Origin: Oribacterium sinus | Lineage (GTDB): Bacteria > Bacillota > Clostridia > Lachnospirales > Lachnospiraceae | Direction of reading: 5' to 3' | Assembly: GCF_014202695.1 (NCBI RefSeq) | Contig: NZ_JACHHH010000001.1 | Coordinates: 1-64,000, forward strand | DNA: 64,000 nucleotides | Shown here: positions 3,731 to 21,491 of the stretch, in pieces | Position numbering within the stretch: position 1 is the first letter of the stretch | Layout: the number at the start of each line of letters is the position of its first letter | Notes under the pieces: generated by a model | Told to the model about the DNA's origin: nothing | Database searches by the model: none | What the model saw: only the letters and a program-made list of their open reading frames with translations | Translations under genes and position numbers: made by a program

Positions 3731-3743
3731 GCTGCTTCCCTCC

Positions 3744-5825
3744 TTAAATGTTTTCAATGGCTTGAGAGTACAAGCCTAGCACGTCTAAGATGATACAAAT
3801 GTTTCCATCTCCTAAGATGGAGCAACCATTAATACCACTGGACTTTAAGTCATACGCATTGAAGTAAGCGGGGAGTGGTTTTACCACAACCTGCTGTTCT
3901 CCGATTAAGTCATCTACGAATAGGCAGCAAGACTTGTCTCCGGCCTCTACCCAGATGAGAACACCGTCCTGTAAATCGGTGTATTTTCCTTCGATGCCGT
4001 AGAAATTGTTCAGGCGAATGATAGGATAGAAAACATCCATTCTCTTTACCATCTCATTTCCGTTCTCGTCAAATACGACTTCGGAATCATCTACCTTGAA
4101 GGACTGACGAATATTTACGATAGGAATGGTGAAGATGGTATCTCCAACATTTACCTTCATACCGTCCATAATAGCCAGTGTAAGAGGAATCTTCATGGTG
4201 AAGGTTGAACCCTTACCGATTTCACTGGAAATGCTGATGGTTCCACCAACAGACTCCAGATTCTTTTTTACTACGTCCATACCAACGCCTCGACCGGAGA
4301 ACTCGGTTACTGCGGTATTGGTGGAGAAGCCGGGAAGCATAATCAAGCCCAAAGCTTCTTTCTTGCTGTATTCGGAACGAGGCTTGTAAAGGATTCCCTT
4401 TTCCTCGGCCTTATCTAAAAGCTTTTCCGGATCCATTCCGTAACCGTCATCCTGAACGGTAATGATAACTTCGGAAGAAGTGTGAGAAGCGGAGAGGATT
4501 AACTCACCCTGAGAATCCTTACCTGCTGCGATACGCTCTTCCTTGGTTTCTTCGATACCGTGGTCCATACTGTTACGGACAATGTGCATCAAAGGATCCT
4601 GAATGCTATCTACGATAGTCTTATCTACTTCGGTATCCTCACCGATGATGGTAAGCTTAACGTCTTTTCCAAGCTTCTGCTTCATATCACGAACGATACG
4701 GTTCATCTTCTGGAAAACACCGGAGATGGACACCATTCGTAAGCTCATGGCGATATCCTGAAGATCGTCTGTTAACTTACGAAGCTGTCTTGCAGACTTC
4801 ATGAAGTTGTCCAGACTTTCCTGAGGCAGCATACGAAGAACAGGAGAGGAGGTTACCATAGATTCGGTAATAACAATTTCTCCTACCAGGTCGTTTAAGC
4901 TGTCCAGCTTCTGCAGGTTTACGGAAATCAAGCTTTGCTTTACAGGCGCTGCAGCCTTTTGCTGTGCAGTCTGCTGAGCCGCTGCAGGCTCTTTACTTGC
5001 CTTTGGTGCGGAACTGCTTTCTGCATTTGCGCTCTTAACCTCAGCCTTTGCCTCAGCCTTTGTTGCCTCTACCGGCTCATAGGAGAGGATATGGCTCTGC
5101 TCCCGTAAGATTTTCTCACCCTTTTCGCAGTCCTCGTCACTATCGAAGGCAAGGAAAAATCCTTCATCGATAATGGTTTGTGCTGTTTCCGGATTGCTAT
5201 CCATATCTGCAGGATAATAACGGAACTCTAAGTCAAATTCCTTGATTGCATTTACAATCATAAAGGCACGAAGATTTTCCATGCCGATTCCTTCATCTAA
5301 GAAGACATGAATGAATTTCTTAGCCTTATCGTCCTTCGGAAGATTGCGATTCTCACCGGAAGCCTTTGTACTGTCTGCCGCTTCTACAACAGGAGCGGAG
5401 TCAGCAGGAGCTTTTCCGGAAATCTTTGCCAAGAAAGCATTGATGGAACCTGCAAATTCTTCAACATTGTTATCCAGCTCTTCGCCGGCCTTTACCTTCT
5501 CCAGTCCGCTACGAAGAAAATCCTCAGAACGGAACATTAAGTCGAAAAGTTCACTTTTCTGGTCTCCGCTTAAAGAATCAATTCCCTTATCACGAATAAA
5601 GAAGAACATGTCTTCAATATGGTGAGCGATATTGGAGAGAGGAGTGAACTCCATCATGGCACTGGAACCCTTAATGGTGTGCATGATTCGGAAAATTTCA
5701 TTTACGTCATCTGTGGAGAAATCCCCTACCTTTTCGTCTGCGATAAGCATTTCGTCCAACTTATCCAGGAGCGCTTCTGTCTCCAAGAGATAGGTGTCCA
5801 GCATTCCTTCCATTGTACTATCCAT
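3744..5825 (-). CDS. cheA: Chemotaxis histidine kinase CheA
   Basis: CheA autophosphorylates under control of MCPs and phosphorylates CheY. The 693 residues carry all classical domains. P1/Hpt includes RIMHTIKGSSAMM with His49 as the phosphoryl site. A P2-like region spans about 170-250, followed by an Ala/Lys/Pro linker (about 255-300). P3 dimerisation begins at about 300. The P4 ATPase carries HIVRNSMDHGIE, DDGYGMD and GRGVGMDVV. P5, the CheW-like regulatory domain, runs from about 545 to the end. The ATG at 5825 has a GGTGG ribosome site. A sigma-28-like motif lies at 5890-5914, downstream of the flgB terminator, so cheA appears to have its own promoter. Confidence 0.97.
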   Translation of the reverse strand: MDSTMEGMLDTYLLETEALLDKLDEMLIADEKVGDFSTDDVNEIFRIMHTIKGSSAMMEFTPLSNIAHHIEDMFFFIRDKGIDSLSGDQKSELFDLMFRSEDFLRSGLEKVKAGEELDNNVEEFAGSINAFLAKISGKAPADSAPVVEAADSTKASGENRNLPKDDKAKKFIHVFLDEGIGMENLRAFMIVNAIKEFDLEFRYYPADMDSNPETAQTIIDEGFFLAFDSDEDCEKGEKILREQSHILSYEPVEATKAEAKAEVKSANAESSSAPKASKEPAAAQQTAQQKAAAPVKQSLISVNLQKLDSLNDLVGEIVITESMVTSSPVLRMLPQESLDNFMKSARQLRKLTDDLQDIAMSLRMVSISGVFQKMNRIVRDMKQKLGKDVKLTIIGEDTEVDKTIVDSIQDPLMHIVRNSMDHGIEETKEERIAAGKDSQGELILSASHTSSEVIITVQDDGYGMDPEKLLDKAEEKGILYKPRSEYSKKEALGLIMLPGFSTNTAVTEFSGRGVGMDVVKKNLESVGGTISISSEIGKGSTFTMKIPLTLAIMDGMKVNVGDTIFTIPIVNIRQSFKVDDSEVVFDENGNEMVKRMDVFYPIIRLNNFYGIEGKYTDLQDGVLIWVEAGDKSCCLFVDDLIGEQQVVVKPLPAYFNAYDLKSSGINGCSILGDGNICIILDVLGLYSQAIENI

Positions 5826-5889: not shown

Positions 5890-5914
5890 ATCGGCAAAAT
5901 CCCTACTGCCATAA
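5890..5914 (-). promoter_or_regulatory. Sigma-28-like promoter of cheA
   Basis: On the minus strand TTAT (5911-5914), 17 bp, then CGAT (5890-5893) within GCCGATAGAT. Spacing and -10 fit SigD/FliA; the -35 is TTAT instead of TAAA. The same pattern precedes six other motility-linked units here. Confidence 0.6.
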
Positions 5915-5934
5915 GGCAAAGTTGGAAAATGCCG

Positions 5935-5963
5935 AAAAAAAACACTGCCCTTTCGGCAGTGCT
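5935..5963 (-). terminator. Rho-independent terminator between flgB and cheA
   Basis: On the minus strand CACTGCC pairs with GGCAGTG around a 5-base loop and is followed by eight T. It separates flgB from the cheA operon. Confidence 0.85.
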
Positions 5964-6080
5964 TCTATTCCCATTTCCTCCATAAAAGGGAGAAAAACTC
6001 AGTATTCCAGAAAAGTTCGGAAGCATCCTTTCTTCCTGAAATCATCATTTTCCTCTTCCTATCATCCTATGGAAAAGGGG

Positions 6081-6470
6081 CTAGAAGCTCTTCGCTGCTG
6101 CCATAAGTCTTCTTAAGTCATTGTTTACAGAGTTTACCATATACTGGTAAGCGTAGGTGGTTTTAACAAGCTCCACCTGTTCCTGATCCATGTCAACGTT
6201 ATTTCCATCTAGTCGACTGGATTCGTTTTTTGTGCTGTGAATTCTTGCCCTCTGGGACTGTATTGCATTCCCGATGGCGACTTTTTTTCGTCCACCCTGC
6301 TCCGCAGTAGAAATGCGGTGGAGAAGTTCATTCTCAAAGGTGAGATATTTTGACTTGTAATTCGGCGTATCCACATTGGCGATATTGTTCACCGTAAGAT
6401 TCTGCCGTCCCCAGAGTAAATCCAGGGTCTTCTCCGTGAGGGCTACTCCATTTCCATAAAATAATGACAT
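6081..6470 (-). CDS. flgB: Flagellar basal-body rod protein FlgB
   Basis: FlgB is the proximal rod subunit of the flagellar basal body. The 129-residue length is normal. The N-terminal region holds the conserved NLTVNNIANVDTPNYKSKYLTFE block (about residues 23-46). The C-terminal helix contains NNVDMDQEQVELVKTTYAYQYM, the standard rod/hook packing motif. Oddly it stands alone: a terminator follows it, cheA comes next, and there is no flgC or fliE in the window, whereas flgB-flgC-fliE are usually joined. A sigma-28-like motif lies 38 bp upstream of the start, while rod genes are often early-class. Apart from this promoter and that of the first MCP gene, the 382-bp gap to 6853 shows nothing more. 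Confidence 0.95.
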   Translation of the reverse strand: MSLFYGNGVALTEKTLDLLWGRQNLTVNNIANVDTPNYKSKYLTFENELLHRISTAEQGGRKKVAIGNAIQSQRARIHSTKNESSRLDGNNVDMDQEQVELVKTTYAYQYMVNSVNNDLRRLMAAAKSF

Positions 6471-6507
6471 AGCTATCCTTTCTCTCTGTTTTTTAGCTCA
6501 ACACAAT

Positions 6508-6532
6508 ATCGGACAGTTTTGCTTTTTTATAA
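6508..6532 (-). promoter_or_regulatory. Sigma-28-like promoter of flgB
   Basis: On the minus strand TTAT (6529-6532), 17 bp, then CGAT (6508-6511) in a perfect TCCGATAT -10. An A-rich stretch follows the TTAT, as in the fourth MCP promoter. Confidence 0.65.
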
Positions 6533-6762
6533 GAGAAAAGCAGATTTTTCTTTTTGCTTTTTTTAGAATTCTGTCTTTACTCTTCCTGTTTTCGTGTTTT
6601 GCTTTTTTGAGCCTTATTATCCTTTAGCGGAATTTGAAAATCTTTCCATATAATTAAGAAGAAAGTTTTTTGCATAATAGCATTTTCAGAAAGAAAGTAC
6701 AAGAAAGCTTCTTGAATCTTTTTCACAGACAGGGAAAATCCTTTGAGAAAGCACGGATTCTC

Positions 6763-6787
6763 TTATATAAGTATGGGCTACGCCGAT
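6763..6787 (+). promoter_or_regulatory. Sigma-28-like promoter of the first MCP gene
   Basis: TTAT (6763-6766), 17 bp, CGAT (6784-6787) in GCCGATGAATC. The flanking CTTATA and CGATGAATCTA are shared with the promoter of the second MCP gene. Confidence 0.6.
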
Positions 6788-6852
6788 GAATCTATGAGCT
6801 TATAAGATCGACAATAAAAATAGGAGTTCGAAATTCAAGGAGGAATGAAAAC

Positions 6853-9051
6853 GTGAAGAAAAAACAAGAAATGAAGGGGTCTATATTGGAGAACTTTGGA
6901 CTGGGGCAGAAAATGTCATTGATTATCGGTGGGCTGACCTTTGTAATGTTGCTTTGCTTACTGTATTTTTTGCTACATAGCTTTAGATTATCTATGAACA
7001 AAAAAGTAGATGCCAATATGGCGGATAAGGTGGAGCAGGCCTCCTATACTTTGGATGATTTGATAACCAAGCTGAATGCCACAGCAGATAATATTGAGGC
7101 AAGTATCAGCTTTGTTTTTGATCAGCATGATGAGGTGGGAGGGGTTCCCGGCAACCCCTGGACCATTAACGATGAGGATGGAAATCCTCAGAGCATTACT
7201 CCTATGGAGAATGTAGCTTTTCGAAGCCGTGTGGTAAATGCATTTCTTCCTGCCTCCCGTTACAATGCGGAGGTGGTGATTCTAAATGCACTGTATGCCA
7301 ATCTGAAAACGGAACCGAATCTGGCAGATATCGGTATCTTGTTTGAGCCGAATGCATTTTATCAGGGGATAGAAAATTATGCTCCTATTCTTTCTCAAGA
7401 CGATCTGGATAAAAGAGCGATTACCAACCATCCTTATTCCAATTATCAGGATGAAATTTATTATAAGGCGGTAAAGGAAAAGGGCTCCACCTTTATCACA
7501 CCGGTTTACGGAGATATTAGCAAGCCGGAAGAAAGAATGTTTGCCATTTATCATCCTATTATCAAGAACAATCAGTTCCTGGGAACTATTCTTTTAGACG
7601 TTAAGGAAGAGGTTTTGCTTACTGCAAGTCAGAGCGATGAGGAATTTCCCTCCATGTTTGTGAATTTGATTGACGGAGAGGGGCTTATTCACAGTAAAAG
7701 TGAAGCGGTAAACGGAAAAACTTTGCAGGAGCTTCTCCCGGAGAAGGCAAGCGCTGCCATTTCCGAGAAGATGGAATCTAAAGAAGCTTTTGCTATTAAT
7801 ATTGTCAATGAGAATGGACAGGAAAGAAGAGAGTATTATTACCCCATCGATATGGAAGGCAGTACCTGGTGGACCAGACTCAGCATTTCTCACAGCGATT
7901 ATAGTAAGGAAGTGGACAGATTAAGAAATGTTGGCATTGTGGCAGGTCTCAGCACGGTATTTATTCTTGTGTTGGCATGTGTCCTGCTGATTGGCCATTT
8001 CTTAAAGCCCTTGCAGAAGGTTGCAGAAGTAGGGGAAAAGCTATCCGTAGGAGATTTCTCCATGGATCTTTCCTATAAGAGCAAGGATGAAATCGGACGT
8101 TTAATGCATTCCATGGGGGATGTAGTTTCCAGAATTCGTTCTATCATAGGAGACCTTTCCGAGAAATTAAATCAGCTTGCCCAGGGAAATTTCAATGTGG
8201 AAATGAACAATGCGGAGTACTATAGCGGTGCCTATCGTCCACTGTTTGATTCCATTAACAATATTTCCACAGATCTTTCCGGCACCATGGCGGAGATTCA
8301 GCAGAGTGCGGTACAGGTAAATTCCGGTGCGGAGCAGGTAAGCTCCGGTGCCCAGGGACTTTCTCAGGGTGCTACAGAGCAGGCTTCTTCCATCGAAGAG
8401 CTTTCTGCAACGGTAAATGATATTTCCGAGCACATTAAGAAGACCGCGGAGAACACCCGTCTGGCTAATGCAGAGGCACAAAATGCCGGTAAGGAAGTAA
8501 GCAATTCCGACAAGCAGATGCAGCAGATGAAGGCTGCTATGGAAAACATCAATGAAAAGTCCGGAGAAATCTCCAAAATTATCAAGACCATTGATGATAT
8601 TGCCTTCCAGACCAATATTTTGGCGCTGAATGCGGCAATCGAAGCGGCAAGAGCCGGCGTAGCCGGAAAGGGTTTTGCGGTAGTAGCGGATGAGGTAGGA
8701 AATTTGGCTCAGAAGTCTGCAAACGCTGCGAAGGATACCACCATGTTAATTGAAGAAACCCTTCAGGCGGTAGAGCAGGGAACGGTTCTTGCTGATAGCA
8801 CCGCAGAATCCTTACAGAGAGTGGTAAGCGGTACAGGCAAGGTAACAGATTTGGTAAATCGGATTGCGGAAGCCTCTGTAGAGCAGTCCAGAGCGGTAGA
8901 GCAGGTATCTGTAGGAATCGATCAGATTTCCTCCGTAGTACAGAGCAACACCGCCACAGCGGAAGAGTCTGCAGCAGCTTCTGAGGAGCTGTCCGGACAG
9001 GCCCATATCCTAAGTGATTTGGTGGGAAGATTCAGTCTTCGAGAGGAATAA
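6853..9051 (+). CDS. Methyl-accepting chemotaxis protein 1 (Cache-type sensor)
   Basis: Transmembrane chemoreceptor of 732 residues. TM1 lies at about 22-44. A large extracytoplasmic sensor of about 310 residues (dCache-like, with FRSRVV...[10 protein letters not shown]) follows. TM2 is at about 360-383, then HAMP and a second HAMP-like segment ([10 protein letters not shown]). The methyl-accepting domain carries the signalling tip [23 protein letters not shown] (about residues 575-600). Start is GTG at 6853 with AAGGAGG 9 bp upstream; an overlapping ATG at 6844 hits a stop at once. No C-terminal CheR-tether pentapeptide is seen. The ligand is unknown. It is the first of four tandem MCPs and most similar to the second. 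Confidence 0.95.
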
Positions 9052-9076
9052 GCATAAGCGAAAAAACAGTTTTCGC

Positions 9077-9101
9077 TTATAAATGTATGGGGATGGTCGA
9101 T
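9077..9101 (+). promoter_or_regulatory. Sigma-28-like promoter of the second MCP gene
   Basis: TTAT (9077-9080), 17 bp, CGAT (9098-9101) in GTCGATGAATC, only 25 bp after the preceding stop codon. Confidence 0.6.
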
Positions 9102-9166
9102 GAATCTAAGAGTTCTTCATTAAAAAATGATTTAGGAGCACGAAATTCAAGGAGGAAAGAAAAAAT

Positions 9167-11365
9167 ATGAAGAAGAAACAGAAGGCCGCAGGCTCTTTTT
9201 ACGAGAATCTGAAGCTAAGTCAGAAAATGTCCTTAATCCTGGGTTCATTGACCTTTGTGATTTTATTGGGATTGCTATATTTCCTGATTCACAGCTTTGA
9301 AATTGCCATGGATAAGAGAATCGATGCCAATATGGAGGATAAGGCGACAGAGGCATCTTCCGATCTGAGCGATTTGATGACAAAATTAGATACCATTACG
9401 AACAATATCGAGCAGAGTATCAGCTTTGTCTTCCAGCAAAATGATGAAGTCGGCGGAAAACCCGGTAACCCATGGAAGATTAGAGATATCGAGGGCAATG
9501 ACCAAACCGTTACCCCTATGGAAAATGCATCCTTCCGTAGTCGTGTGGTGGATGCGTACATCCCGGCTTCCCGCTACAATGCCGAGGTGGTAATGCTGAA
9601 TGCATTGTATTCCAACATGAAGGATGAGGAAAATCTGGAGGATATCGGTGTTCTTTTCGAGCCCCATGCCTTCTATCAGGGAATTGATAATTATGCACCT
9701 CTGCTTCTTAGAAATGAAGTGGAGAATAGAAGAATCATGAACTTCCCCTATGAGAAGTATCAAAATATTGCTTATTACACCGGAGCGAAGGAAAAGGGCG
9801 ATACCTATGTTTCTCCTGTTTACAGTGATACGGTAGACCCCAGCAAGAGAATGTTTGCCATCACCAAGCCCATCATGAACAACAATCAGTTTGTGGGTGC
9901 TATTCTTCTGGATGTAAAGGAAGATATGTTACTTAACATTAGCATGGAGGATCCTGCCTTCCCCTCTATGTTTGTAAATATGATTGATGGAGAAGGCCTG
10001 ATTCACAGTAAAAATGAGGAAGTAAACGGAAAAACACTGGAAGAGCTTCTTCCTGAGAAGGCTTACAAAGCCATTTCCGAAAAGATGGAATCCAAAGAAG
10101 CCTTCACATTAAAGATTGTAAATGAGCATAATCAGGAGAGAAGAGAGTATTATCATCCTATCGATATGCACGGCAGTACCTGGTGGGTTAGATTAAATAT
10201 TTCCGAGAAAGACTATGACAGAGAAGTGGACCGTTTGGTAAGTATCGGTGCAGTTGCCGGTGTAGCAACCGTAATCCTTTTAGTCATCGTAACAGCAGTT
10301 TTGATTACTCGTTTCTTAAAGCCATTACAGAAGGTGGCAGAGGCAGGAGAGAAGCTTTCCGCAGGAGATTTCTCCATGGATCTTTCCTACAAGAGCAATG
10401 ATGAAATCGGCGTTCTGATGCATTCCATGAACAACGTAGTAGAGAGAATCCGTTCCATTATCTCGGATCTTTCCGAGAAGCTCACTGAGCTTGCCCATGG
10501 AAACTTCAATCTGGAAATGAAGAATGAGGAATACTATAGCGGATCCTATAGACCTCTCTTTGATTCCATTAACAATATCACTGCAGATCTTTCCAATACT
10601 ATGGCAGATATTCAGCAGAGTGCAATTCAGGTAAATTCCGGTGCAGAGCAGGTAAGCTCCGGTGCCCAGGGACTTTCTCAGGGTGCTACAGAGCAGGCGT
10701 CTTCTATCGAAGAGCTTTCTGCAACGGTAAATGATATTTCCGAGCACATTAAGAAGACAGCGGAGAACACTCGTCTGGCTAATGCAGAGGCACAAAATGC
10801 CGGTAGGGAAGTAAGCAACTCCGACAAGCAGATGCAGCAGATGAAGGCTGCTATGGAAAACATCAATGAAAAGTCCGGAGAAATCAGTAAGATTATCAAG
10901 ACCATTGATGATATTGCCTTCCAGACCAATATTTTGGCGTTGAATGCGGCAATCGAAGCGGCAAGAGCCGGCGTAGCCGGAAAGGGCTTTGCGGTAGTAG
11001 CGGATGAGGTAGGAAATTTGGCTCAGAAGTCTGCAAACGCTGCGAAGGATACCACCATGTTGATTGAAGAAACCCTTCAGGCGGTAGAGCAGGGAACTGT
11101 TCTTGCTGATAGCACCGCAGAATCTTTACAGAGAGTGGTAAGCGGTACAGGCAAGGTAAGCGATTTGGTAAATCAGATTGCGGAAGCCTCTGTAGAGCAG
11201 TCCAGAGCGGTAGAGCAGGTATCTGTAGGAATCGATCAGATTTCCTCCGTTGTACAGAGCAACACCGCCACAGCGGAAGAGTCTGCAGCAGCTTCTGAGG
11301 AGTTGTCCGGACAGGCTAATATTTTAAGCGACTTGGTAAGACGCTTCCAGTTGAAGGAAGACTAA
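9167..11365 (+). CDS. Methyl-accepting chemotaxis protein 2 (close paralogue of MCP 1)
   Basis: Exactly the same length (732 residues) and domain order as the preceding gene: TM1 about 22-44, Cache-like sensor, TM2 about 360-383, tandem HAMP-like segments, methyl-accepting domain. The sensor halves have diverged at many positions. The signalling halves are almost identical at DNA level, for example around 8326-9000 versus 10640-11315. That points to recent duplication or gene conversion of the output domain while the sensor evolves. Ribosome site AAGGAGG precedes the ATG. A strong terminator follows at 11393-11453. Confidence 0.95.
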
Positions 11366-11392
11366 AACAATAATTGAATATATAGCTATACT

Positions 11393-11453
11393 AAAAAAGG
11401 AGCTGTAAAAATCCAAATCTGTATTTTGGTTTTTTTACAGCTCCTTCTTTTTT
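11393..11453 (+). terminator. Long terminator hairpin after the second MCP gene
   Basis: AAGGAGCTGTAAAAA pairs with TTTTTTACAGCTCCTT around a short inner stem and is followed by a T-run. Being A-rich on one side and T-rich on the other, it could work in both directions. A very similar stem closes the hemZ gene (47982-48069). Confidence 0.85.
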
Positions 11454-11471
11454 AGTTCTGCTGTTTCTTCC

Positions 11472-11595
11472 ATTATTCTATTGAAAGAGTGTGAAAAAAC
11501 AATTATTCCATTGAAAAAGTGTGTCATATAACTATTATTCGATGGAAAAAATGTAATATAACAACATTATTCAATCGAAAAATGCAAATTCTTTC
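11472..11595 (+). repeat. Four phased ~31-bp direct repeats upstream of the third MCP gene
   Basis: The unit ATTATTCnATnGAAAAAnTGT starts at 11472, 11502, 11534 and 11566, that is every 30-32 bp. The promoter TTAT at 11596 falls one further period downstream. The spacing equals three helical turns, so the conserved part of each unit faces the same side of the DNA. Confidence 0.75.
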
Positions 11596-11621
11596 TTATG
11601 CCTCCTCGGAAAAACGCCGAT
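11596..11621 (+). promoter_or_regulatory. Sigma-28-like promoter of the third MCP gene
   Basis: TTAT (11596-11599), 18 bp, CGAT (11618-11621) in GCCGATTTAT. Confidence 0.55.
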
Positions 11622-11699
11622 TTATACCTTGGCTTATTAACGTGACAGAATAAAGCAGATGCAATGTAGAGATTGTTTTTTCAAGGAGGAAAGAACAGA

Positions 11700-13907
11700 A
11701 TGAAAAAGGGTATTGGGGTAGAGAAGAAGCAGAAGCGTTCTTCCATCAGCACAAGATTATCGATGATTTTAGGAATTGCCAGTGTATTGGTATTTTTTGC
11801 CATGAGTGTGGCAATCATTAAGACAGGAGAGCATTCCATCAGTTCAGCTCTGGACAACAACTTAAACGATAAGGCCACCATGGCCATTGGAGATTTGCAA
11901 CAGGTTATTTCTCGTTTGGAGTCTATTTCCATGACACTTGAAAACGGTATTCACAGCATGCACAGTCAGCATGACGGCATTGGACAGGCGCCGGAGAATC
12001 AGTGGGTGGTAAAGGACAGAGCTACCGGAGAAGTAGTCAATAATCCGGGGATGGGAGCAACGACCTTCCGCTCCAGAATTGTGAATGCGGAGCTTCCCGC
12101 TTCTCGTTACAATGCGGAAACCGTGATTTTAGATTCTTTACAGTCCGCCTTAACCGACAATAAGGATTTGGTAGGAGCAGGAATCTTCTTTGAGCCAAAC
12201 GGTTTCTCCGACAATGTTTCCGATTACGGGGTATATATGTCCGCAGAGGATTTGGAAAAGAAGGGGGTTATGGCCTACCAGTACAGCTTTTACAAGGACG
12301 CTTCCTGGTATAATGGGGCAAAGGATTCCGGAGAAATGGTATTAACCGATGTGTACAGCGATACCCTTCATCCGGATATTCAGATGATCAGTTTGGGAAA
12401 TCCTATTACTGATGAAAACAATGCCTTTGTGGGAGCAGTTATTCTGGATATTAACACTAAAGTATTCAGCGCCATTCAGCAGACCGATGAGCGTTTTCCC
12501 TCTTTGGCAACCAATATCTTAGATGCAAACGGAAGCTTTTTGTATTCCATGAAGGAAGAGGCTATTGGAAAGAAGCTGGAAGAAGTTTTGGATAAGGATA
12601 CCTATGAAATGCTTCGCCAAAATATGGATAAGGAGGAAGCATTTACGGCTACGGTGGTGAATGCAGAGGGGGTAAAAGAGAGAATGTACTTCCGTCCATT
12701 AATCATTCACGGTTCCACCTTGTGGTCTATGATTAGTATTGCCGACAGTGAATTTATGGCAGCCAGAAATCAGTTGGTCATCATGTGTGCCGTTTTCAGT
12801 ATTGTAGGCCTTATGATTTTGATTGCCATCAGCTTCTTCTTAATTAAGAGGGCTTTAAATCCATTACAGGGAATCGCTTTGGCAGGAAAAGCTGTTGCGG
12901 AAGGAAACTTTGATGTAAAGGTTTCCTACGATCAGCAGGATGAAATCGGAGACTTGGCGGTTGCCATCCAGAGTGTTATGCAGCATGTTCGGGAAATCAT
13001 TTCCGATCTTTCCGAGAAATTAGGAGAATTGGCAAAGGGAAACTTCCGTGTTTCTTTGGACAATGCGGAGCAGTATCCGGGAGCTTATCGTCCCCTTCTT
13101 ACCTCCCTTCAGGAAATCACCAATGATTTAGATAAAACCATGTCGGAGATTAAGACCAGTGCCAAGGAGGTTAACGCCGGTGCGGAGCAGGTAAGCTCCG
13201 GCGCTCAGGGACTTTCTCAGGGTGCTACAGAGCAGGCATCTTCTATTGAGGAATTAAGTGCTACCATGAACGACATTTCCACCCAGATTAAGGGAACTGC
13301 GGAGATGGCGGTGAAGGCTTCCGGGCTTTCTCAAAGAACAGAGGAGGCTGTAGGCCTTAGTAACCAAAAGATGGAAGAAATGTCCAGGGCAATGCAGGAA
13401 ATCACCGAGAAGTCCAATGAAATCAGTAAGATTATCAAGACCATTGATGATATTGCCTTCCAGACCAATATCTTATCTTTGAATGCGGCTATAGAGGCGG
13501 CAAGAGCCGGTGCAGCAGGAAAGGGCTTTGCAGTGGTTGCGGATGAGGTAGGAAACCTGGCTCAAAAGTCTGCAAAGGCGGCACAGAATACTTCCAGCCT
13601 TATTGAGGAAACCATTGAAGCGGTGGAAAAGGGAGCCAAGATTACGGAAGAAACCGCAGAATCCTTGACAACCGTATCCAACCATGCGAAGGATATTAAC
13701 GACATTATCACAAACATCTCCAGCGCATCGGAGGAAGAGGCTAGAGGCGTTTCTCAGCTGACAACGGGAATCGATCAGATTTCCTCTGTGGTACAGAGCA
13801 ATACCGCAACGGCAGAGCAGTCTGCGGCAGCTTCTGAGGAGCTTTCCGGCCAGGCCAATATCATGAATGATTTGGTAAATCGTTTTCAATTAAAAAACGA
13901 GGACTAA
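11700..13907 (+). CDS. Methyl-accepting chemotaxis protein 3
   Basis: A 735-residue chemoreceptor. It has a basic cytoplasmic N-terminus, TM1 at about 20-40 and an extracytoplasmic Cache-like domain that shares the FRSRIV...[10 protein letters not shown] motif with its neighbours. TM2 lies at about 359-382 ([15 protein letters not shown]). A HAMP segment, a second HAMP-like part and a methyl-accepting domain follow, with tip [23 protein letters not shown]. The open frame extends nine codons further, but ATG at 11700 has AAGGAGG about 10 bp before it and is preferred. It is separated from the first two receptors by a terminator and has its own promoter and a phased repeat array, so its regulation probably differs. 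Confidence 0.95.
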
Positions 13908-14193
13908 TCAGAATACACTTAAAATGAGTTTTCATAAAAATATGCATTAAGCCTTCATGAAATATAACTGTATAGGATAGAATGAGCGTTTAATACTATA
14001 CTTAAGCTTAAGCATAAAATAAAAAAGACTGCCTCTTGAGAAACTGCAACCCCCTGATTTAGGGATAATGCTGAGTCCCAAGGGGCTGTTTATATTCTTA
14101 ATGAGTATCACAGGATGTGACACTTAGTTTACAGGGGACATCTGAAGTCTTTTGTGAAAAATAAAGAAAGTGCCGGGGAAAAGGGAATTTACC
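13908..14193. other. Gap between MCP genes 3 and 4, possible mobile-element scar
   Basis: The 364-bp gap before the fourth MCP gene holds no gene. About 14028-14150 contains CCCCCTGATTTAGGG, a CCCAAGGGGC stretch and CACAGGATGTGACAC. These look unlike the AT-rich surroundings and may be the remnant of an insertion-sequence end. I cannot identify the element. Confidence 0.3.
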
Positions 14194-14219
14194 TTATAAA
14201 AAAGGCTAAATCGGACGAT
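14194..14219 (+). promoter_or_regulatory. Sigma-28-like promoter of the fourth MCP gene
   Basis: TTAT (14194-14197), 18 bp, CGAT (14216-14219) in GACGATGAATTAG; the A-run after TTAT matches that of flgB. Confidence 0.55.
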
Positions 14220-14271
14220 GAATTAGAGAAGAAAACAGGAAGTAGAATTTTTCAAGGAGGAAAAATACAAA

Positions 14272-17142
14272 ATGAAAAAAAGAAGCAATACCACTGGGAC
14301 ATCCTTTTGGAAAAAGATGAAGCTCAGTTCAAGAATGTCTGTGGCAATAGGACTTCTTAGCATAATTTTAATGGCAGGCTTAAGCATTGCTATTATTTCC
14401 ATGGGAAAGACTGCCATTTACGGTGCTTTACGAGGAAATATGGATGATAAGATTCGTTTGGGAATTGCAGATCTGGATAACGTGGTTACCCAGGCTGAGG
14501 TTACGGCGAACACCATTAAAGAAGGCATTGTAAGTATATATGATCAGAACGATATGGCGGGAGGGGTTCCCTCCCATCTTTGGACCATTGAGGATGACCA
14601 GCACAATATTTTAGAGCCCACCACTATGGCAGGAACCATGTTCCGTTCCCGAATTGTGGATGCAGCGATTCCCGCCAGTCGCTATAATGCGGAGACAACT
14701 CTTTTGGACTCCATTTATGCTTCTTTAAGCAATAATGAGTCCTATGTGGGAATCGGTGTTTTCTTGGAGCCGAATGCTTTTTATCAGGGTATCGAAAACT
14801 ACGCCCCCTATATGAGCAGAACTGATGCGGAGAAGAGAAAGCTGATGGTTTACCCTTACAGCATGTATTCTCAGAAGGACTATTACCTGAAGGCAAAGGA
14901 GAATAAGGGATTAAATCTGACCAATGCCTATGAGGATGAAAGTGCAGATGGGGGATGGGTTGTATCCGTTATTGAACCGATTATATATAAGGATGAGTTT
15001 AAGGGAATCGTTATCGTCGATATGGATATGACTTCCTTTGAAATCATTGAACAGAAGGATGAGCGTTTCCAGAGCTTATACAGCAATGTATTTGATACAA
15101 ACGGTCACATCATGTTCAGTATGAACGAAGAGGCTAAGGGAAAGCAATTAAGCGATATTCTTCCTGCGGATAGTATGGAAAAGCTTCAATCCTATCTGGA
15201 TCAGGGAGAACCCTTCAATACCCATATTCAAAATGAAAATGGAGACCTGGTGCAGTTTAATGCCCGTCCTTTAAAGATAGAAGGCGTAACCTGGTGGGTA
15301 GCCATCGAGGTTTCCGAAAAGGAATATACCAAGGCAATCAGTAACATGATTATGCTGGCAATTCCCCTTTCCGTTCTGGGAATTGCACTCTTGGTAGGAT
15401 TCAGCTATTTCTTTATCAAGAAGTCCTTAAATCCATTAAAGAAGATTGCCGACGTGGGAGAATCCGTGGCAGAGGGAGACTTCTCCAAGGAAATCAACTA
15501 TCCTTACCAGGATGAAATCGGACAGATTGCCAAGAGCATGGAAAAGGTTGTGGAACGAATCCGAAGCATTATTCAGGATTTGGCAGGAAAGTTGGAACAG
15601 ATTGCCAAGGGAAATTTCTCCTTCGAATTCTGGAATACCCAGCTTTATAACGGGGAGTATGAGCCGTTACTTACCAGTCTTTACGATATTTTAGACGATT
15701 TAAACGTAACCATGGGAGAAATTCAGAACAGCTCTCATATGGTAAACTCTTCCGCTATGCAGGTTAGCGGTTCCGCTCAGACCCTGTCTCAGGGCGCAAC
15801 GGAGCAGGCATCTTCCATCGAAGAACTCAGCGCAACCATGAATGATATTTCCGTAAAAATCAAGGAAACAGCGGAAATGTCTCAGCATGCTTCCGGACTT
15901 TCCAAGGAAACCGGCAGTGCGGTAGGAACCAGTAACCAGAAGATGAACGAGATGTCCAGAGCAATGCAGGACATCACCGAGAAGTCTCAGGAAATCAGTA
16001 AGATTATTAAGACCATTGATGATATTGCTTTCCAGACCAATATCCTTTCCTTAAATGCGGCTATCGAAGCGGCAAGAGCAGGAGCGGCAGGAAAGGGCTT
16101 TGCGGTTGTAGCGGATGAGGTAGGAAACCTTGCCCAGAAGTCTGCAAAGGCGGCTCAGAACACTTCCAGCTTAATCGAGGAAACCATTGAGGCGGTAAAT
16201 AAGGGGGCAAGAATTACAGAGGAAACCGCAGAGTCTCTTTCTGTAGTATCCCAGAAAACCGAGAAGATTAACGGTATTATCACCTCCATTTCTTCCGCAT
16301 CCGAGGAAGAGGCTGAAGGAATCAAGCAGCTTACTACAGGTCTTGACCAGATTTCTTCCGTAGTACAGAGCAATACTGCAACAGCGGAAGAGTCCGCAGC
16401 AGCATCTCAAGAGCTTTCCGGACAGGCAGACCGCTTGAACGAATTGTTAGAGAAGTTCCAGTTAAGAACAGAGCCTTACAAGAGAGAATTAAATGGCTTT
16501 GCTGCAACAAAGAAGGATGAGACTGCTCCGGTAGCTACTCCGGTAGTTGATAATATAGAAGTCATTCCTGTATTGGAAAAGACGGAAGCTTCTCCGGCAG
16601 TAGAGAAAGTAAAGAATACTCCTGTAGTAGAGAAAGCAAAACCAACTTCTGCTACAGCAAAATTAGAAAAGCCGGTGGCAAAAAAGGAAGAGAAGCCTGC
16701 TGAACCAAAGAATGATAAGCAGGTAGAAGAGAAGCCGGTGGAAGCGAAGGCAGAAAAAACGGTAGCTAAAACCGAAAAAAAGTCCGAAGCTAAAGCAGAA
16801 GTAAAAGCTGCGGAAGCAGATGAGCTGAAGGAGGAAGAAACTCCTGTTAAGAAGCCGGTAGAAAAGAAAAAGGCAAAAACTACGAAAGCATCCGTGGTAG
16901 AAGAAGGACAGGTTTTAGTGGATATCAGCGGTATGGATGGTATGGATTTATCCCAGATTCCCATTCCCGGAGATGCTCACTATGTACCGCAGGATGGAGT
17001 AAAGAAAACGCCGCTGCAGAATCAGGAAAAGCTCTCCACTGAGGAAAAGGCGGAAAGAGAAGAGGCTTTAGCCAAGGATTTAGGAAAAATCCGGAAAACT
17101 GAGTATAAGAGAAGCATTTTACCGGATGATGACAAGTATTAA
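14272..17142 (+). CDS. Methyl-accepting chemotaxis protein 4 with long charged C-terminal tail
   Basis: The first ~730 residues are a chemoreceptor like its three neighbours. TM1 is at about 22-43, then a Cache-like sensor, TM2 at about 360-383, HAMP segments and a methyl-accepting domain with [23 protein letters not shown]. Unlike them it continues for about 220 residues. First comes a Lys/Glu/Ala/Pro/Val-rich low-complexity stretch ([23 protein letters not shown] is part of it), about residues 750-880. A less repetitive end follows with [29 protein letters not shown]. The tail should be cytoplasmic and could be a tether or localisation element. AAGGAGG precedes the ATG. A terminator-like hairpin lies at 17161-17192. 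Confidence 0.94.
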
Positions 17143-17160
17143 TTAGTCAGCATCTTAGAA

Positions 17161-17192
17161 AGAGGATCGCCATAGTGCCGGTCCTCTTTTTC
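17161..17192 (+). terminator. Terminator of the MCP array
   Basis: AGAGGATCGCC and GCCGGTCCTCT form an imperfect stem around a short loop, followed by TTTTT, 19 bp past the stop of the fourth MCP gene. Confidence 0.7.
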
Positions 17193-17367
17193 TTGATTCT
17201 TAAAGAGTTTTGCAGAAATATGTGGAGAATCTTTCTTAAGCTCCCGGAATAATGTCCTCATTTCTTACATGGCAGGAGTATCCGGAAGACCGTAGTAAAG
17301 GAGAATATAAAACTTAAAAATAAAGGAAAGCACCTTTGTTTTTATGTAAATTGCGCAAAAATCACAC

Positions 17368-17396
17368 TTGGAATTTGTGCAATTTTTGTGTATACT
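17368..17396 (+). promoter_or_regulatory. Vegetative promoter giving a near-leaderless NUDIX mRNA
   Basis: TTGGAA (17368-17373), 17 bp, TATACT (17391-17396). The ATG of the NUDIX gene is at 17404, 8 bp after the -10, so transcription should begin at or next to the start codon. Two similar words, TTGCGCAA (17351) and TTGTGCAA (17375), flank the -35 and could be an operator. Confidence 0.65.
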
Positions 17397-17403
17397 GTTG
17401 CGT

Positions 17404-17907
17404 ATGGAGAAGAAAAGATTTGCTGACGGTGTATTAACCACTCTCTGTTATGTAGAGAAAGAGGGAAAATGGTTAATGCTTCACCGGAATAAGAAAAAGG
17501 AAGATATTAATAAAGGAAAATGGATCGGTGTAGGAGGGCATTTTGAAGCGGGAGAAAGCCCGGAGGATTGTCTTTACCGAGAAGTTTTCGAGGAAACGGG
17601 ACTGCATGTCCTGAGCCATCAACTAAGGGGAATCGTAAGCTTTTTCTATGGAGAAAAAGATTGCAGCTATATGTTTTTATTCACTGCCGTACTGGAAGAA
17701 GGTCCTTTAAAGGAATGTTCGGAAGGTGAACTGCAATATTTTTCCTATGAAGAGGTGAAAGCATTACCCCTTTGGGAGGGAGACCGGATCTTTCTGGAAT
17801 TGTTGGCAAAGGGAGAGGGATTTTTCTCTTTAACTTTACGATATGACCGGGAGGGGAAGTTGTTGGAAGCCATTTTGGATGGGAAAGAGAATTTGCTCTC
17901 ATCCTAA
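17404..17907 (+). CDS. NUDIX hydrolase (MutT/8-oxo-dGTPase-like)
   Basis: NUDIX enzymes hydrolyse nucleoside diphosphates linked to another group. The 167 residues hold a full NUDIX box, GHFEAGESPEDCLYREVFEETGL (about residues 46-68), in the G-x5-E-x7-RE-x2-EE-x-G pattern. The start VLTTLCYVEKEGKWLMLHRNKKK and the WIGVGGHFEAGE context resemble MutT-type 8-oxo-dGTPases; the true substrate is not shown by sequence. A longer frame from TTG at 17368 exists but that codon lies inside the -35 box. There is no ribosome site before ATG 17404, in keeping with leaderless translation. Confidence 0.9.
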   Translation: MEKKRFADGVLTTLCYVEKEGKWLMLHRNKKKEDINKGKWIGVGGHFEAGESPEDCLYREVFEETGLHVLSHQLRGIVSFFYGEKDCSYMFLFTAVLEEGPLKECSEGELQYFSYEEVKALPLWEGDRIFLELLAKGEGFFSLTLRYDREGKLLEAILDGKENLLSS

Positions 17908-17959
17908 ATGCCGAAAATTTTCCCATTTATTAAAAAATTATAGTGCTATACAAAATGCA

Positions 17960-17985
17960 TTATTGCTATTAATAACAACGCCGAT
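17960..17985 (+). promoter_or_regulatory. Sigma-28-like promoter of the lipoprotein-GGDEF pair
   Basis: TTAT (17960-17963), 18 bp, CGAT (17982-17985) in a perfect GCCGATAT. It sits 55 bp before the lipoprotein start and matches the motif of the chemotaxis genes. Confidence 0.6.
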
Positions 17986-18039: not shown

Positions 18040-19524
18040 ATGAAGAAAAGTATAATACAGATTTTAGAATTGCCGGTATTACTGACCATGGCACTGGGGC
18101 TTTTGGCCTGCGGTACCAAGGTGGTCAGTTCTGCAGAAAGCCCCTTTAGCAAAGAAAGGGGCGGTTTTAGTGTGAAAGAAGAGCCCTTGGAAATCACGGT
18201 TTGGACCTATTTTTCCGGTATTCAACAGGAGGCCTTTCAGCGAACGATTAATCGTTTCAATGAAGGTCGTGGAAAGGATATCGGAGTAGAGGTGAAGGCC
18301 TATAACCCCGGTTCCACCTTGGATTTGCAGAATAATTTATACGGGATTAACCAAAAGAAATTAGCCCAGGGGGATTATCCGGACATCGTCAGCTTGCATA
18401 CCGATACAGCGATGATATTGGAAGAGGAAGGGGTTCTCACAGACCTGGATTCCTATTTCAGCAAAGAAGATTGGAGTGCTTTTGTGCCGAGCTTTCTTGA
18501 GGAAGGGCGATTGGGGAGGAAATATGGAGGCGTAAAGATTTTGCCTGTGGCCAAGTCCACGGAGCTCCTCTATATCAACAAAACGGATTGGGATAGCTTT
18601 GCGGAAGCTACCGGAACATCTCTTTCGGAATTAAGCACCAAAGAAGGCTTACTGAATGTTGCAGAAAAATACTACCGGTATACGGATTCGCTTACGGAAA
18701 CGCCGGATGACGGCAAAGCGTTCTACGGCATTGATGACTATGCGAACTATATGCTGGTAGGAGCCAGAGAGCTGGGCGTGAATTTAATTTCTGTAGATGA
18801 GGAAGGAAATCCTAAGGTGCAATTCCCAAAAGAAGTGATGAAAACCCTGTGGGATAATTTATATGTTCCTATTATTAAAGGCTATTTCACCTCTGAGGGG
18901 CGTTTTCGGTCCGATGATGTGAAGACAGGAGATATTCTGGCCTATACCGCATCTTCCGCTTCCAGTGTTTACTTTCCGAAGGAAGTGATTATTTCGGACC
19001 GGGAACAACATGCCATTACCGATATTGTTTTGCCGGCTCCTCACTTTGAAGGAGGGGAAGAGATTGCGATGCAGCAGGGGATCGGCATGGGTGTTGTTCA
19101 AGGAAATAAGAAGAGAGTGGAGGCTTCCGTTCAATTTTTAAAGTGGCTGACCAGCTATGAGGAAAATGCCCAGTTCGCCATTTCTGCAGAATATCTTCCG
19201 GTACGTGTAGACAGCTTTACCGTGGAAGCTATTGACAAGGAGAAGGGGAGCGGAATGGATCCTTCTTTGGAAAAGGCTTTGTCCACCATGTCTTCCAACA
19301 CCTTGTATTTTACCCCTTCCATCATTAATCTGGCAGAAATTAGAAAAGCTCTGGAATATGAGCTTCAGGATAAGGCTTTGTCGGATCGGTATAAGATTGA
19401 GACTGCAATGGCTTCCGGCGTATCCAGAGAGGATGCTATAGCGGAGTATGATAATGACGAGAATTTTGAACAGTATTATGAGACTATATTACAGGAAATA
19501 AATTATTTGTTGTCAGATAGTTAA
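18040..19524 (+). CDS. Extracellular solute-binding lipoprotein
   Basis: A 494-residue family-1-type (sugar-binding class) solute-binding protein. The signal peptide ends in a lipobox GLLAC with the lipidated cysteine at residue 24. The mature part opens with EPLEITVWTYFSGIQQEAFQRTINRFNE, the usual first strand and helix of such proteins. It continues with GDYPDIVSLHTD and YINKTDWD motifs. The frame could begin at 17992, but ATG 18040 follows AAGGA and gives a proper signal peptide. No ABC permease or ATPase lies nearby. The next gene, 44 bp on, is a membrane GGDEF protein. The lipoprotein may therefore feed a signalling partner rather than a transporter; that is inference from context. Confidence 0.88.
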   Translation: MKKSIIQILELPVLLTMALGLLACGTKVVSSAESPFSKERGGFSVKEEPLEITVWTYFSGIQQEAFQRTINRFNEGRGKDIGVEVKAYNPGSTLDLQNNLYGINQKKLAQGDYPDIVSLHTDTAMILEEEGVLTDLDSYFSKEDWSAFVPSFLEEGRLGRKYGGVKILPVAKSTELLYINKTDWDSFAEATGTSLSELSTKEGLLNVAEKYYRYTDSLTETPDDGKAFYGIDDYANYMLVGARELGVNLISVDEEGNPKVQFPKEVMKTLWDNLYVPIIKGYFTSEGRFRSDDVKTGDILAYTASSASSVYFPKEVIISDREQHAITDIVLPAPHFEGGEEIAMQQGIGMGVVQGNKKRVEASVQFLKWLTSYEENAQFAISAEYLPVRVDSFTVEAIDKEKGSGMDPSLEKALSTMSSNTLYFTPSIINLAEIRKALEYELQDKALSDRYKIETAMASGVSREDAIAEYDNDENFEQYYETILQEINYLLSDS

Positions 19525-19568: not shown

Positions 19569-21491
19569 ATGAAGAAACAACCGATTTTTACGAAAATATT
19601 GATTCCTTTGATGGGGTTGGTTATCTTGGAGATTTTGATTTTGATGATTTCTATTTATGGTCAGGGCTTGTTTTCTCTGATTCATAAAAATTCCCAAGAT
19701 ATCATCGAAAGTCGTGTGGAAGCAAGACGAAATTATCTGGAAAGCCTGATGGTGAATCAGTGGATGAATGTCAGCCAAACCGTGCAAAAGATTAATCTTT
19801 TGGCAGATGGGCTTGTGGATGCGGGAAAGATGGATATTGAGGCTATTGATGACAGTTCCGAAAATGCCGCTCCCTTCTTAAGTGCAGTCAGTATGGACTT
19901 AATCAGTATGATGCGGACCAATCACGTTACAGGCGTTTTTATGATATTAAATGCGGATAACTTGGAAGACAGTATGACGTCCAAGAAATATATGGATAAG
20001 CCGGGCCTGTACTTTAGAGATTTGGATCCGGAATCCAGAGCCAGCTCGGAAAACTTGGATTTACTGATTGAACGCTCTCCTCTTTTGGTGGTACGAAATA
20101 CCCAGATTGCTACCGATAAAACCTGGAATACCAGCTTTCAATTCGGTACGGCAGATGTGCCCTATTATGACTTTTTATATGAACCTACCCAAGCGACCTT
20201 TTACAGTAAGCCGGATGTAACCTGGGAGGATATGGGATTTTGGAGTAAACCCTATACCTTATTCGGCGAAACCAGAGAAGCCATTGCCTATTCAGTTCCC
20301 CTACGGCTTTCCGACGGACGGGTGTATGGAGTTCTGGGAGTGGATATTTTGGTGGATTATTTGAAGCAAAATCTGCCCTCCAGAGAATTGGACGGTAGTG
20401 GAACTGCCTCGTATTTTCTCAGTATTCATAAAAGCGGAAATTCAGAGGGAAGCAGTACAAGCTATCAGGATATCATTCAGCTCAATTCGATAGAAGCTAC
20501 GATAGGAGAAGACCGGGAAGGGAAAGTTGTTTCGGATAAGAAGAATTATTTTACTTTCAGTATGCCTTTACATCTTTTTTCCACAGTAGGACCTTTCACT
20601 GATATGGAGTGGCAGTTGGGAGCGGCTATTCCCTATAAGACGATGAACCGCTTTGCGGATAGGATGACATTCGTCATGTCCGTTACCATTATTCTGACTC
20701 TGGGTATCGGAATCGTGGGAAGCCTTGTGATTTCCCTATTTTTGCAAAAGCCTATTCGGAAGCTGGCGCTGGCGATTCGCAGTAATAAGACGACGGATAA
20801 ACTTCGTCTTAGAGAAACCGGCATTTTAGAGATTGATCAAATGTCGGAGGCTCTGGAGGACTTGTCCGATAGACTTTTACAGGAACAAAGGAATCTGCAA
20901 TACGAAAGAGACCATGACTTCCTTACAGACCTTTATAACCGAAGAGCCTTTGGAAGAAGAATCCGAGAGCTTTTGGAGAAAAAAGGCGGAGGAAATGCTA
21001 TCGGTGCTTATATCATGATGGACCTGGATAATCTGAAGATTGTAAACGATACCTACGGCCATGAATATGGAGACAAATATATCCGCTGTGCTTCCGATGC
21101 CATGAGAGAAGGCTTGGGGGATGAAGCCATATATTCCCGTATTTCCGGAGACGAGTTCAATGCCTTTATCTTTGATGAAGAGGGCAATCGGAGCCGTATC
21201 AATGCCTTGATTGAAAGATTACAGGAGACCATTGACAACAGCTTCATCATGCTTCCGGATGGAGAAAAGAAGCAGCTTCGACTTTCCGGCGGTGTCAGCT
21301 GGTACCCCGAAGGAGGAACTAATCCGGATCAGCTCCAGAAAAATGCGGACTATGCCATGTATGTGGTGAAGAAAACCACTAAGAGTCAGATTCGTGTCTG
21401 GAGTGAAGCAACAGATTTAGGCAAAGAGAAAGAAGAAAATAAAGAAGAAAAGAAAGAAGAGAAAAAGAATGAGCCTGAGCAGAATGCTTGA
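19569..21491 (+). CDS. Membrane diguanylate cyclase (Cache-HAMP-GGDEF)
   Basis: Makes the second messenger cyclic di-GMP, if active. The 640 residues run: TM1 about 7-29, a large extracytoplasmic Cache-like sensor (about 30-360), TM2 about 365-391, a HAMP-like linker, and a GGDEF domain from about 455. FLTDLYNRRAF, YIMMDLDNLKIVNDTYGHEYGD and the signature RISGDEFNAF (about residue 526) are intact; the active-site variant is SGDEF. I see no RxxD inhibitory site at the usual position. A Lys/Glu-rich tail of about 25 residues ends the protein. It is probably co-transcribed with the preceding lipoprotein from the 17960-17985 motif. The pheST promoter overlaps its stop codon. Confidence 0.92.
   Translation: MKKQPIFTKILIPLMGLVILEILILMISIYGQGLFSLIHKNSQDIIESRVEARRNYLESLMVNQWMNVSQTVQKINLLADGLVDAGKMDIEAIDDSSENAAPFLSAVSMDLISMMRTNHVTGVFMILNADNLEDSMTSKKYMDKPGLYFRDLDPESRASSENLDLLIERSPLLVVRNTQIATDKTWNTSFQFGTADVPYYDFLYEPTQATFYSKPDVTWEDMGFWSKPYTLFGETREAIAYSVPLRLSDGRVYGVLGVDILVDYLKQNLPSRELDGSGTASYFLSIHKSGNSEGSSTSYQDIIQLNSIEATIGEDREGKVVSDKKNYFTFSMPLHLFSTVGPFTDMEWQLGAAIPYKTMNRFADRMTFVMSVTIILTLGIGIVGSLVISLFLQKPIRKLALAIRSNKTTDKLRLRETGILEIDQMSEALEDLSDRLLQEQRNLQYERDHDFLTDLYNRRAFGRRIRELLEKKGGGNAIGAYIMMDLDNLKIVNDTYGHEYGDKYIRCASDAMREGLGDEAIYSRISGDEFNAFIFDEEGNRSRINALIERLQETIDNSFIMLPDGEKKQLRLSGGVSWYPEGGTNPDQLQKNADYAMYVVKKTTKSQIRVWSEATDLGKEKEENKEEKKEEKKNEPEQNA

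Follow-up and report, generated by a model that had tools for sequence, protein, structure and literature searches.

We analyzed a 64,000-nucleotide (nt) stretch of the Oribacterium sinus genome (contig NZ_JACHHH010000001.1, positions 1 to 64,000; hereafter, the window), in which chemotaxis and flagellar genes are preceded by a recurrent promoter-like element, TTAT followed after 17 or 18 bases (N17, N18) by CGAT. The -10 half of this element is that of promoters of the sigma factor sigma-28 (FliA/SigD), and its -35 half departs from the canonical consensus. Seven such sites lie before cheA, flgB, four genes for methyl-accepting chemotaxis proteins (MCP1 to MCP4) and a lipoprotein-GGDEF gene pair. 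Both strands of the window were scanned (128,000 positions ranked) with a matrix derived from 20 flagellin promoters taken from other genomes with an SQPR-type FliA, so called after the helix start described below (G075 is a duplicate record of G001). The matrix was anchored on CGATA, leaving the -35 region free; together with footprints, it was used in place of bare-motif counts, since the latter lie near background. The sites, with their matrix ranks, and the genes they would serve are:

5890..5914, minus strand: predicted sigma-28 promoter of cheA, CTTAT-N17-CGAT, with 68 nt from CGAT to the start codon; matrix rank 7
6508..6532, minus strand: predicted sigma-28 promoter of flgB, CTTATA-N17-CGATATT; matrix rank 1
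6763..6787, plus strand: predicted promoter of MCP1, CTTATA-N17-CGATGAAT; matrix rank 4
9077..9101, plus strand: predicted promoter of MCP2, CTTATA-N17-CGATGAAT; matrix rank 3
11596..11621, plus strand: predicted promoter of MCP3, CTTAT-N18-CGATTTAT; matrix rank 182, weak alone
14194..14219, plus strand: predicted promoter of MCP4, CTTATA-N18-CGATGAAT; matrix rank 21
17960..17985, plus strand: predicted promoter of the lipoprotein-GGDEF pair, ATTAT-N18-CGATATT; matrix rank 72
2386..3204, minus strand: cheR (Pfam CheR), the third gene after cheA and cheW
3215..3757, minus strand: cheW (Pfam CheW)
3744..5825, minus strand: cheA (Pfam Hpt, P2, H-kinase_dim, HATPase_c and CheW)
6081..6470, minus strand: flgB (NCBIfam TIGR01396, above cut-off)
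6853..9051, plus strand: MCP1 (Pfam MCPsignal, HAMP and PDC)
9167..11365, plus strand: MCP2 (Pfam MCPsignal, HAMP and PDC)
11673..13907, plus strand: MCP3 (Pfam); the start codon may be further in
14272..17142, plus strand: MCP4 (Pfam)
18040..19524, plus strand: solute-binding-type lipoprotein (Pfam SBP_bac_8 and SBP_bac_1)
19569..21491, plus strand: GGDEF diguanylate cyclase (Pfam GGDEF)

All seven sites were recovered where the first-pass annotation had placed them, and the altered -35 that it described is present at every one, as CTTAT in six and as ATTAT before the lipoprotein gene, with TAAA at this place in none. The -10 half agrees with the sigma-28 element (G)CCGATA: CGAT is present at 7/7 window sites, flagellin sites read CGATA, and MCP sites read CGATGAAT or CGATTTAT. 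The spacing had been described as equal to that of SigD/FliA promoters, in which 15 bases separate TAAA from GCCGAT, that is, 17 from CGAT. This description stands for the sites of cheA, flgB, MCP1 and MCP2 (N17), whereas those of MCP3, MCP4 and the lipoprotein gene (N18) are one base longer. TTAT-Nk-CGAT occurs in the window seven times at k = 17 and five times at k = 18, and 0 to 3 times at any of the remaining k values between 10 and 25. Four of the seven sites rank within the top 7 of the 128,000 positions; the three N18 sites are weak by themselves, and gain weight because relatives also show N18 gaps at their MCP, cheA and lipoprotein sites.

Across the genome, window genes included, the exact pattern lies upstream of 13 of the 22 O. 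sinus motility gene starts examined, against about 0.09 matches expected for 22 stretches of 300 nt at the density of the control; the list was partly chosen because matches lay there, and several genes in it are copies. A Poisson value computed on this list, with flagellin copies taken as independent, is therefore not relied on. All four flagellin genes have the pattern (three at about 240 nt before the gene, the fourth on contig C3), and further matches lie 196 nt before fliD, 152 nt upstream of flgM and 137 nt upstream of flgL; FlgM, FlgL and FliD are the best names for these products, yet they score under the NCBIfam cut-offs. Together with cheA and the MCP genes, these are late flagellar and chemotaxis genes, as is typical of sigma-28 promoters. 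Among the other starts, TTTAT variants were found before flgK, fliW, fliS and a cheC-like gene (at -338), and flgF has a CTTAAT-like matrix match instead of the exact pattern; neither the exact pattern nor a variant site was found at the fliE, motA, flgC and cheV starts. Some of the motility starts without the pattern may be internal to operons. The matrix scan also revealed a TTTATA site 61 nt upstream of a flgE/flgG-like gene. The plain genome scan that the first-pass annotation proposed for testing enrichment before flagellin, motA, fliD and che genes would not reveal it, with 81 matches against 74 for the reversed control. The bare pattern by itself is no evidence; position and conservation carry the weight.

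At positions 2958-6171 of L066, three near-alike flagellin genes lie in tandem with a CTTAT site before each, and a fourth similar copy lies on contig C3. Very strong matrix matches were also present outside motility genes, at C1:280769 (L081), C4:154609 (L080) and C3:559 (L083), in stretches that had been selected for matching the pattern. One of these lies about 290 nt before the gene of a 561-amino-acid (aa) membrane protein (MEFIGSLFGL...), and the other two have no nearby gene of at least 80 aa; it is possible that these matches represent further regulon members or small RNAs. On the minus strand at C5:24887 (L082), a TTTATA-type site located 55 nt before the gene of a 277-aa protein outscores two of the three flagellin sites of contig C2.

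The pattern recurs in the SQPR-type set, which comprises Oribacterium and close kin, including O. sinus itself, with 33 flagellin upstream regions. TTAT lies 17 bases before CGAT in 19 of them, and at every other distance from 8 to 27 in 0 to 2; pooled over N16-18, TTAT is present in 22/33 and TAAA in 0/33. In Oribacterium only, TTAT at N16-18 precedes 16 of 24 flagellins. Logos anchored on CGATA alone show that a large part of the information upstream lies at -22 to -18 before CGAT, with about 0.8 to 1.5 bits at each position in SQPR flagellin sites.

The window sites also have counterparts in the genus. CTTAT-N-CGA is kept upstream of cheA, with varying spacer, in 10 of 12 genomes including O. 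sinus (the exceptions are G009 and G006), and in several relatives the -10 of this site reads CGAAATAG. CTTATA-N-CGA lies upstream of flgB in 8/12 genomes, again counting O. sinus, with six of the eight sites at about 150 nt upstream and reading CGAA or CGAC. A site is present at all ten MCP genes found near cheA (O. sinus included; one is ATTAT) and, for MCP upstream regions generally, in 9/13 (4/4 in O. sinus and 5/9 elsewhere), and N18 gaps occur at the MCP and cheA sites of relatives as well. Homologues of the lipoprotein gene in G009 and G005 (L286) have CTTAT-N18-CGA upstream, and in G009 a GGDEF-bearing gene follows (by motif match), as in O. sinus. The site is absent from two further G005 homologues (L288 and L289), so that one of three has it in that genome. 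Neither a FliA above the cut-off nor a flagellin match was found in the Oribacterium genomes G003, G007 and G008, G003 being only 72 per cent complete. In the FliA-less G007, the homologue of the lipoprotein gene has no site, but its identity of 31 per cent gives this little weight. A further Oribacterium genome, G002 (87 per cent complete), has FliA and no flagellin match.

Regarding the window genes, the lipoprotein probably starts at ATG 18040 rather than at TTG 17992, because the alignment with the G009 homologue begins near residue 16; CGAT would then lie about 58 nt upstream. The flgB gene lies immediately upstream of cheA in the same orientation and is separate from the large flagellar cluster on contig C2; in relatives it is also found near cheA. 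At its C-terminus, MCP4 (956 aa) extends far beyond the signalling domain, while MCP1 to MCP3 have 732 to 744 aa.

The O. sinus genome encodes one FliA above the family cut-off (TIGR02479, 227.4 bits against a cut-off of 189.6). Its region 4.2 reads LNMNQIAEVMEVSQPRVSQLH, with the helix-turn-helix NMNQIAEVMEVSQPRVSQLH, compared with TLKEISKVLEVSESRVSQLH in a typical relative. The usual helix start is ESR (SESR, TESR or GESR), which is common without being formally defining; the O. sinus protein has SQPR instead. Of the 29 other FliA in the first comparison, 28 have ESR and the remaining one (G029) has SEPR. ESR was likewise found in five solved FliA/WhiG chains with alignments shown; E. coli FliA (6pmi) has ESR. 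SQPR is present in 14/14 Oribacterium FliA compared and, beyond the genus, in [Clostridium] aminophilum and three uncultured genomes, and the SEPR group is broad, including Mediterraneibacter agrestimuris, Candidatus Blautia stercoravium and Clostridium sp. C105KSO13. Among 397 sampled family genomes, 34 encode a FliA sharing 46 per cent identity or more with that of O. sinus (itself counted; one copy has an internal stop), and the next FliA among the matches listed has 38 per cent identity or less. A fold model (mean pLDDT 69, used for helix limits only) starts the recognition helix at residue 237. In an alignment to the O. sinus RpoD (NVTRERIRQ), Q237 and P238 fall on its R and E, which correspond to R584 and E585 of E. 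coli sigma-70. These sigma-70 residues contact -31 and -33, and R584A prefers A:T at -31 (PMC2613000).

In 30 flagellin upstream regions of other Lachnospirales with ESR FliA, TAAA is present at N16-18 to CGAT in 13 and TTAT in none; nine have none of TTAT, TTAA, TAAA and TAAG there, and ten have TTAA, which at spacing 18 continues as TTAAAG, TTAAGT and the like and is mostly the usual element read one base early. TTAT occupies the register of the outgroup TAAA, 17 (18) bases before CGAT. To count bases, sites were chosen by CGATA and kept if they had T at -34 and A at -32, a filter neutral to the positions of interest, with the A of CGAT assumed to be -11. Position -33 is A in 15/17 ESR-type sites, and T in 22/23 SEPR and 18/18 SQPR sites; position -31 is A or G in 15/17 ESR-type sites, mixed among the 23 SEPR sites, and T in 18/18 SQPR sites. 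The filter removed 7/24 ESR-type, 8/31 SEPR and 6/24 SQPR sites with CGATA, and CGATA was absent from the range in 5/29, 9/40 and 11/35 upstream regions, respectively; the contrast persists unfiltered, with T at -33 in 3/24 vs 43/55.

In a FliA tree built without region 4, 56 FliA (SEPR, SQPR and the SDSR of G335) fall on one side of the outgroup, with SQPR nested in SEPR. CTTAAGT is dominant in one subclade (exceptions include G375, with CTTATGA), and CTTATC/G/T is found in two others; most members of the SQPR clade have CTTATA, and CTTATC, CTTATT and CTTATG are also present. The relatives form a series, CTAAAG, CTTAAG, CTTATC/G and CTTATA. Two genomes stand apart. G335 (L240, L270) has an SDSR FliA on a long branch inside the SEPR clade and GTTAACA before its flagellin, possibly a reversion. 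G031 (L063, L121) has a very divergent FliA (LKYSEIS, GESRVCQ) and, upstream of its flagellin, GTGAAAT in the -35 position, which may represent a -35 change of independent origin.

Taking these data into account, we consider the sites to be, with a probability of roughly 0.86, FliA (sigma-28) promoters whose -35 half drifted together with the sigma factor. By sequence they are a variant of the sigma-28 promoter outside the canonical consensus, where we place them because TAAA was looked for at -35 and not found. The earlier proposal, in which the promoters are of sigma-28 type and their -35 is peculiar to the lineage, is supported by the motility sites of the O. sinus genome, the genus-wide recurrence, the TAAA register and the altered region 4.2 of FliA. 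The -10 half (GCCGATA) is kept and the -35 half has moved from CTAAAG to CTTATA, with promoter changes at -33, -31 and -30 if the A of CGAT is -11. Region 4.2 would have changed in step, Q237 and P238 opening the recognition helix in alignment with R584/E585 of sigma-70. The predicted regulon comprises the flagellins, fliD, flgM, flgL, cheA and the MCP genes, plus flgB and the lipoprotein-diguanylate cyclase pair. The sequences themselves establish the sites, their conservation and register, the altered FliA and the intermediates. The change in FliA is the likely cause of the altered -35, and we infer both that the O. sinus FliA reads these sites and that Q237/P238 cause the shift. More tentatively, at somewhat short of even odds, a joint change of the -35 code may have occurred in FliA and its whole regulon, one base at a time along the series and with no second FliA, residues 237 and 238 reading -31/-30 and -33. 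If so, each of the two end states would recognize the promoters of the other poorly, and together they would constitute a natural orthogonal sigma-28 pair.

Several observations weigh against a joint drift of FliA and its promoters. The exact pattern is missing at 9/22 O. sinus motility starts, and TTAT at N16-18 to CGAT is missing from 11/33 SQPR flagellin upstream regions (8/24 in Oribacterium). TAAA is found at a non-canonical N15 at fliD and the cheC-like gene, and one of 13 MCP upstream regions (MCP2) has a TAAA-N-CGA match. A matrix of ordinary Lachnospirales promoters ranks the window sites at 6 (cheA), 10 (lipoprotein), 12 (flgB), 24 (MCP1), 34 (MCP3), 77 (MCP2) and 111 (MCP4), and three O. 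sinus flagellin sites at 3 to 5 within 169 kb. The first-pass view that the regulon would be hidden from standard scans therefore holds for an exact TAAA search, which misses the sites, and fails for this matrix, which still finds these three flagellin sites through the -10 half and the AT-rich DNA; where the two halves are shown (cheA, lipoprotein, flgB and MCP1), its score comes mainly from the -10 half. SEPR sites are mixed at -31 (12 A, 10 T and 1 C), so the residue-base pairing is not one to one, and T at -33 also occurs in 2/17 filtered ESR-type sites and in G335, despite its SDSR FliA. The tree has long branches (G031, G045 and G335). It shows two changes at proline 238 and one at glutamine 237, and independent-pairs tests gave p = 1, with no power; because the key changes happened only once or twice, the comparison does not assign bases to individual residues. 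We rejected a code in which each residue strictly reads one base (S-to-P paired with -33 and E-to-Q with -31), as the SEPR sites break it at -31. Other residues that track -31 (199, 197, 256 and 246, among others) are confounded by descent and are not claimed.

The base composition of the genome bears on two of the alternatives. Both TTAT and CGAT occur often in AT-rich DNA, and a pattern picked by eye could be fortuitous, as might be suspected from the 81 matches to CTTATN16-18CGAT in the 2.73 Mb genome against 74 for the reversed control, and from the 5/12 window matches (k = 17 or 18) that fall within genes. These counts also weigh against our interpretation. However, a matrix made from other genomes puts four sites among its top seven positions, 13 of the 22 motility starts have the pattern against about 0.09 expected, on a list partly chosen by matches, and the sites are present in other species, where their absence would have favoured chance; we regard a fortuitous origin as very nearly negligible. 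A subtler proposal is that the -35 contact has been relaxed, the FliA of this clade accepting any AT-rich -35 and TTAT reflecting mostly base composition. Changes at E585 and R584 of sigma-70 do relax specificity (PMC2613000), the flanks are AT-rich, and ordinary matrices still score some sites. Relaxation would hardly explain, however, the information carried at -22 to -18 in SQPR flagellin sites, the peak of TTAT at one spacing, or the lack of TAAA at N16-18 in all 33 upstream regions, and we consider it quite unlikely.

It is also conceivable that only the -10 is a sigma-28 element and that CTTATA is the site of a lineage-specific activator replacing the -35 contacts. Such a site could equally be conserved, and activator-dependent sigma-28 promoters are known, as described for aer and CRP in E. 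coli (PMC2859248). Nevertheless, CTTATA sits in the TAAA register, relatives differ from it by single bases, and FliA itself is altered in the helix expected to read the -35, which makes an activator quite improbable. A shared drift of FliA and its -35 elements remains our preferred explanation.

Sigma-28 promoters are usually described by one consensus. With canonical FliA/SigD promoters (TAAA-N15-GCCGATAA/T) the sites described here share the -10 half, the spacing (exactly in 4/7) and the place before late flagellar and chemotaxis genes; they differ in their CTTAT(A) -35, with TAAA at N16-18 before 0/33 SQPR-type flagellins, and in the extra spacer base of three window sites. A single consensus is likewise used in the portion of PMC3720852 available to us, where the Butyrivibrio reference motif has a -35 of TAAA and a -10 of MCGATAa. 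The same portion describes predicted sigma-28 -10 elements before Roseburia and Eubacterium flagellins, mostly from the same family as Oribacterium, with predicted -35 elements that are mostly taaa, with single ttaa, taag and taga, and does not mention a joint shift of FliA and the -35 (PMC3720852). The alphaproteobacterial RpoH1 and RpoH2 offer a likeness, in that a divergent region 4.2 accompanies a divergent -35 (CTTGAA vs CTTGCC, there from Barnett et al. 2012). In that case two paralogues split their targets after duplication (PMC4843759), whereas the genomes compared here each have one FliA, which appears to have moved along with its regulon, and living relatives retain intermediates. 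In the open-licence literature searched, we found no description of a changed sigma-28 -35 for either Oribacterium or Lachnospiraceae, which is weak evidence of novelty.

Our results imply that the -35 half of the sigma-28 consensus fails in one genus and also, as the intermediates indicate, in a broader set of Lachnospiraceae. The lipoprotein-diguanylate cyclase pair is added as a candidate motility gene unit. The relatives provide a natural series in which to ask how the DNA code of a regulator can change with its promoters following suit, and make the -35 recognition code of sigma-28 directly testable.

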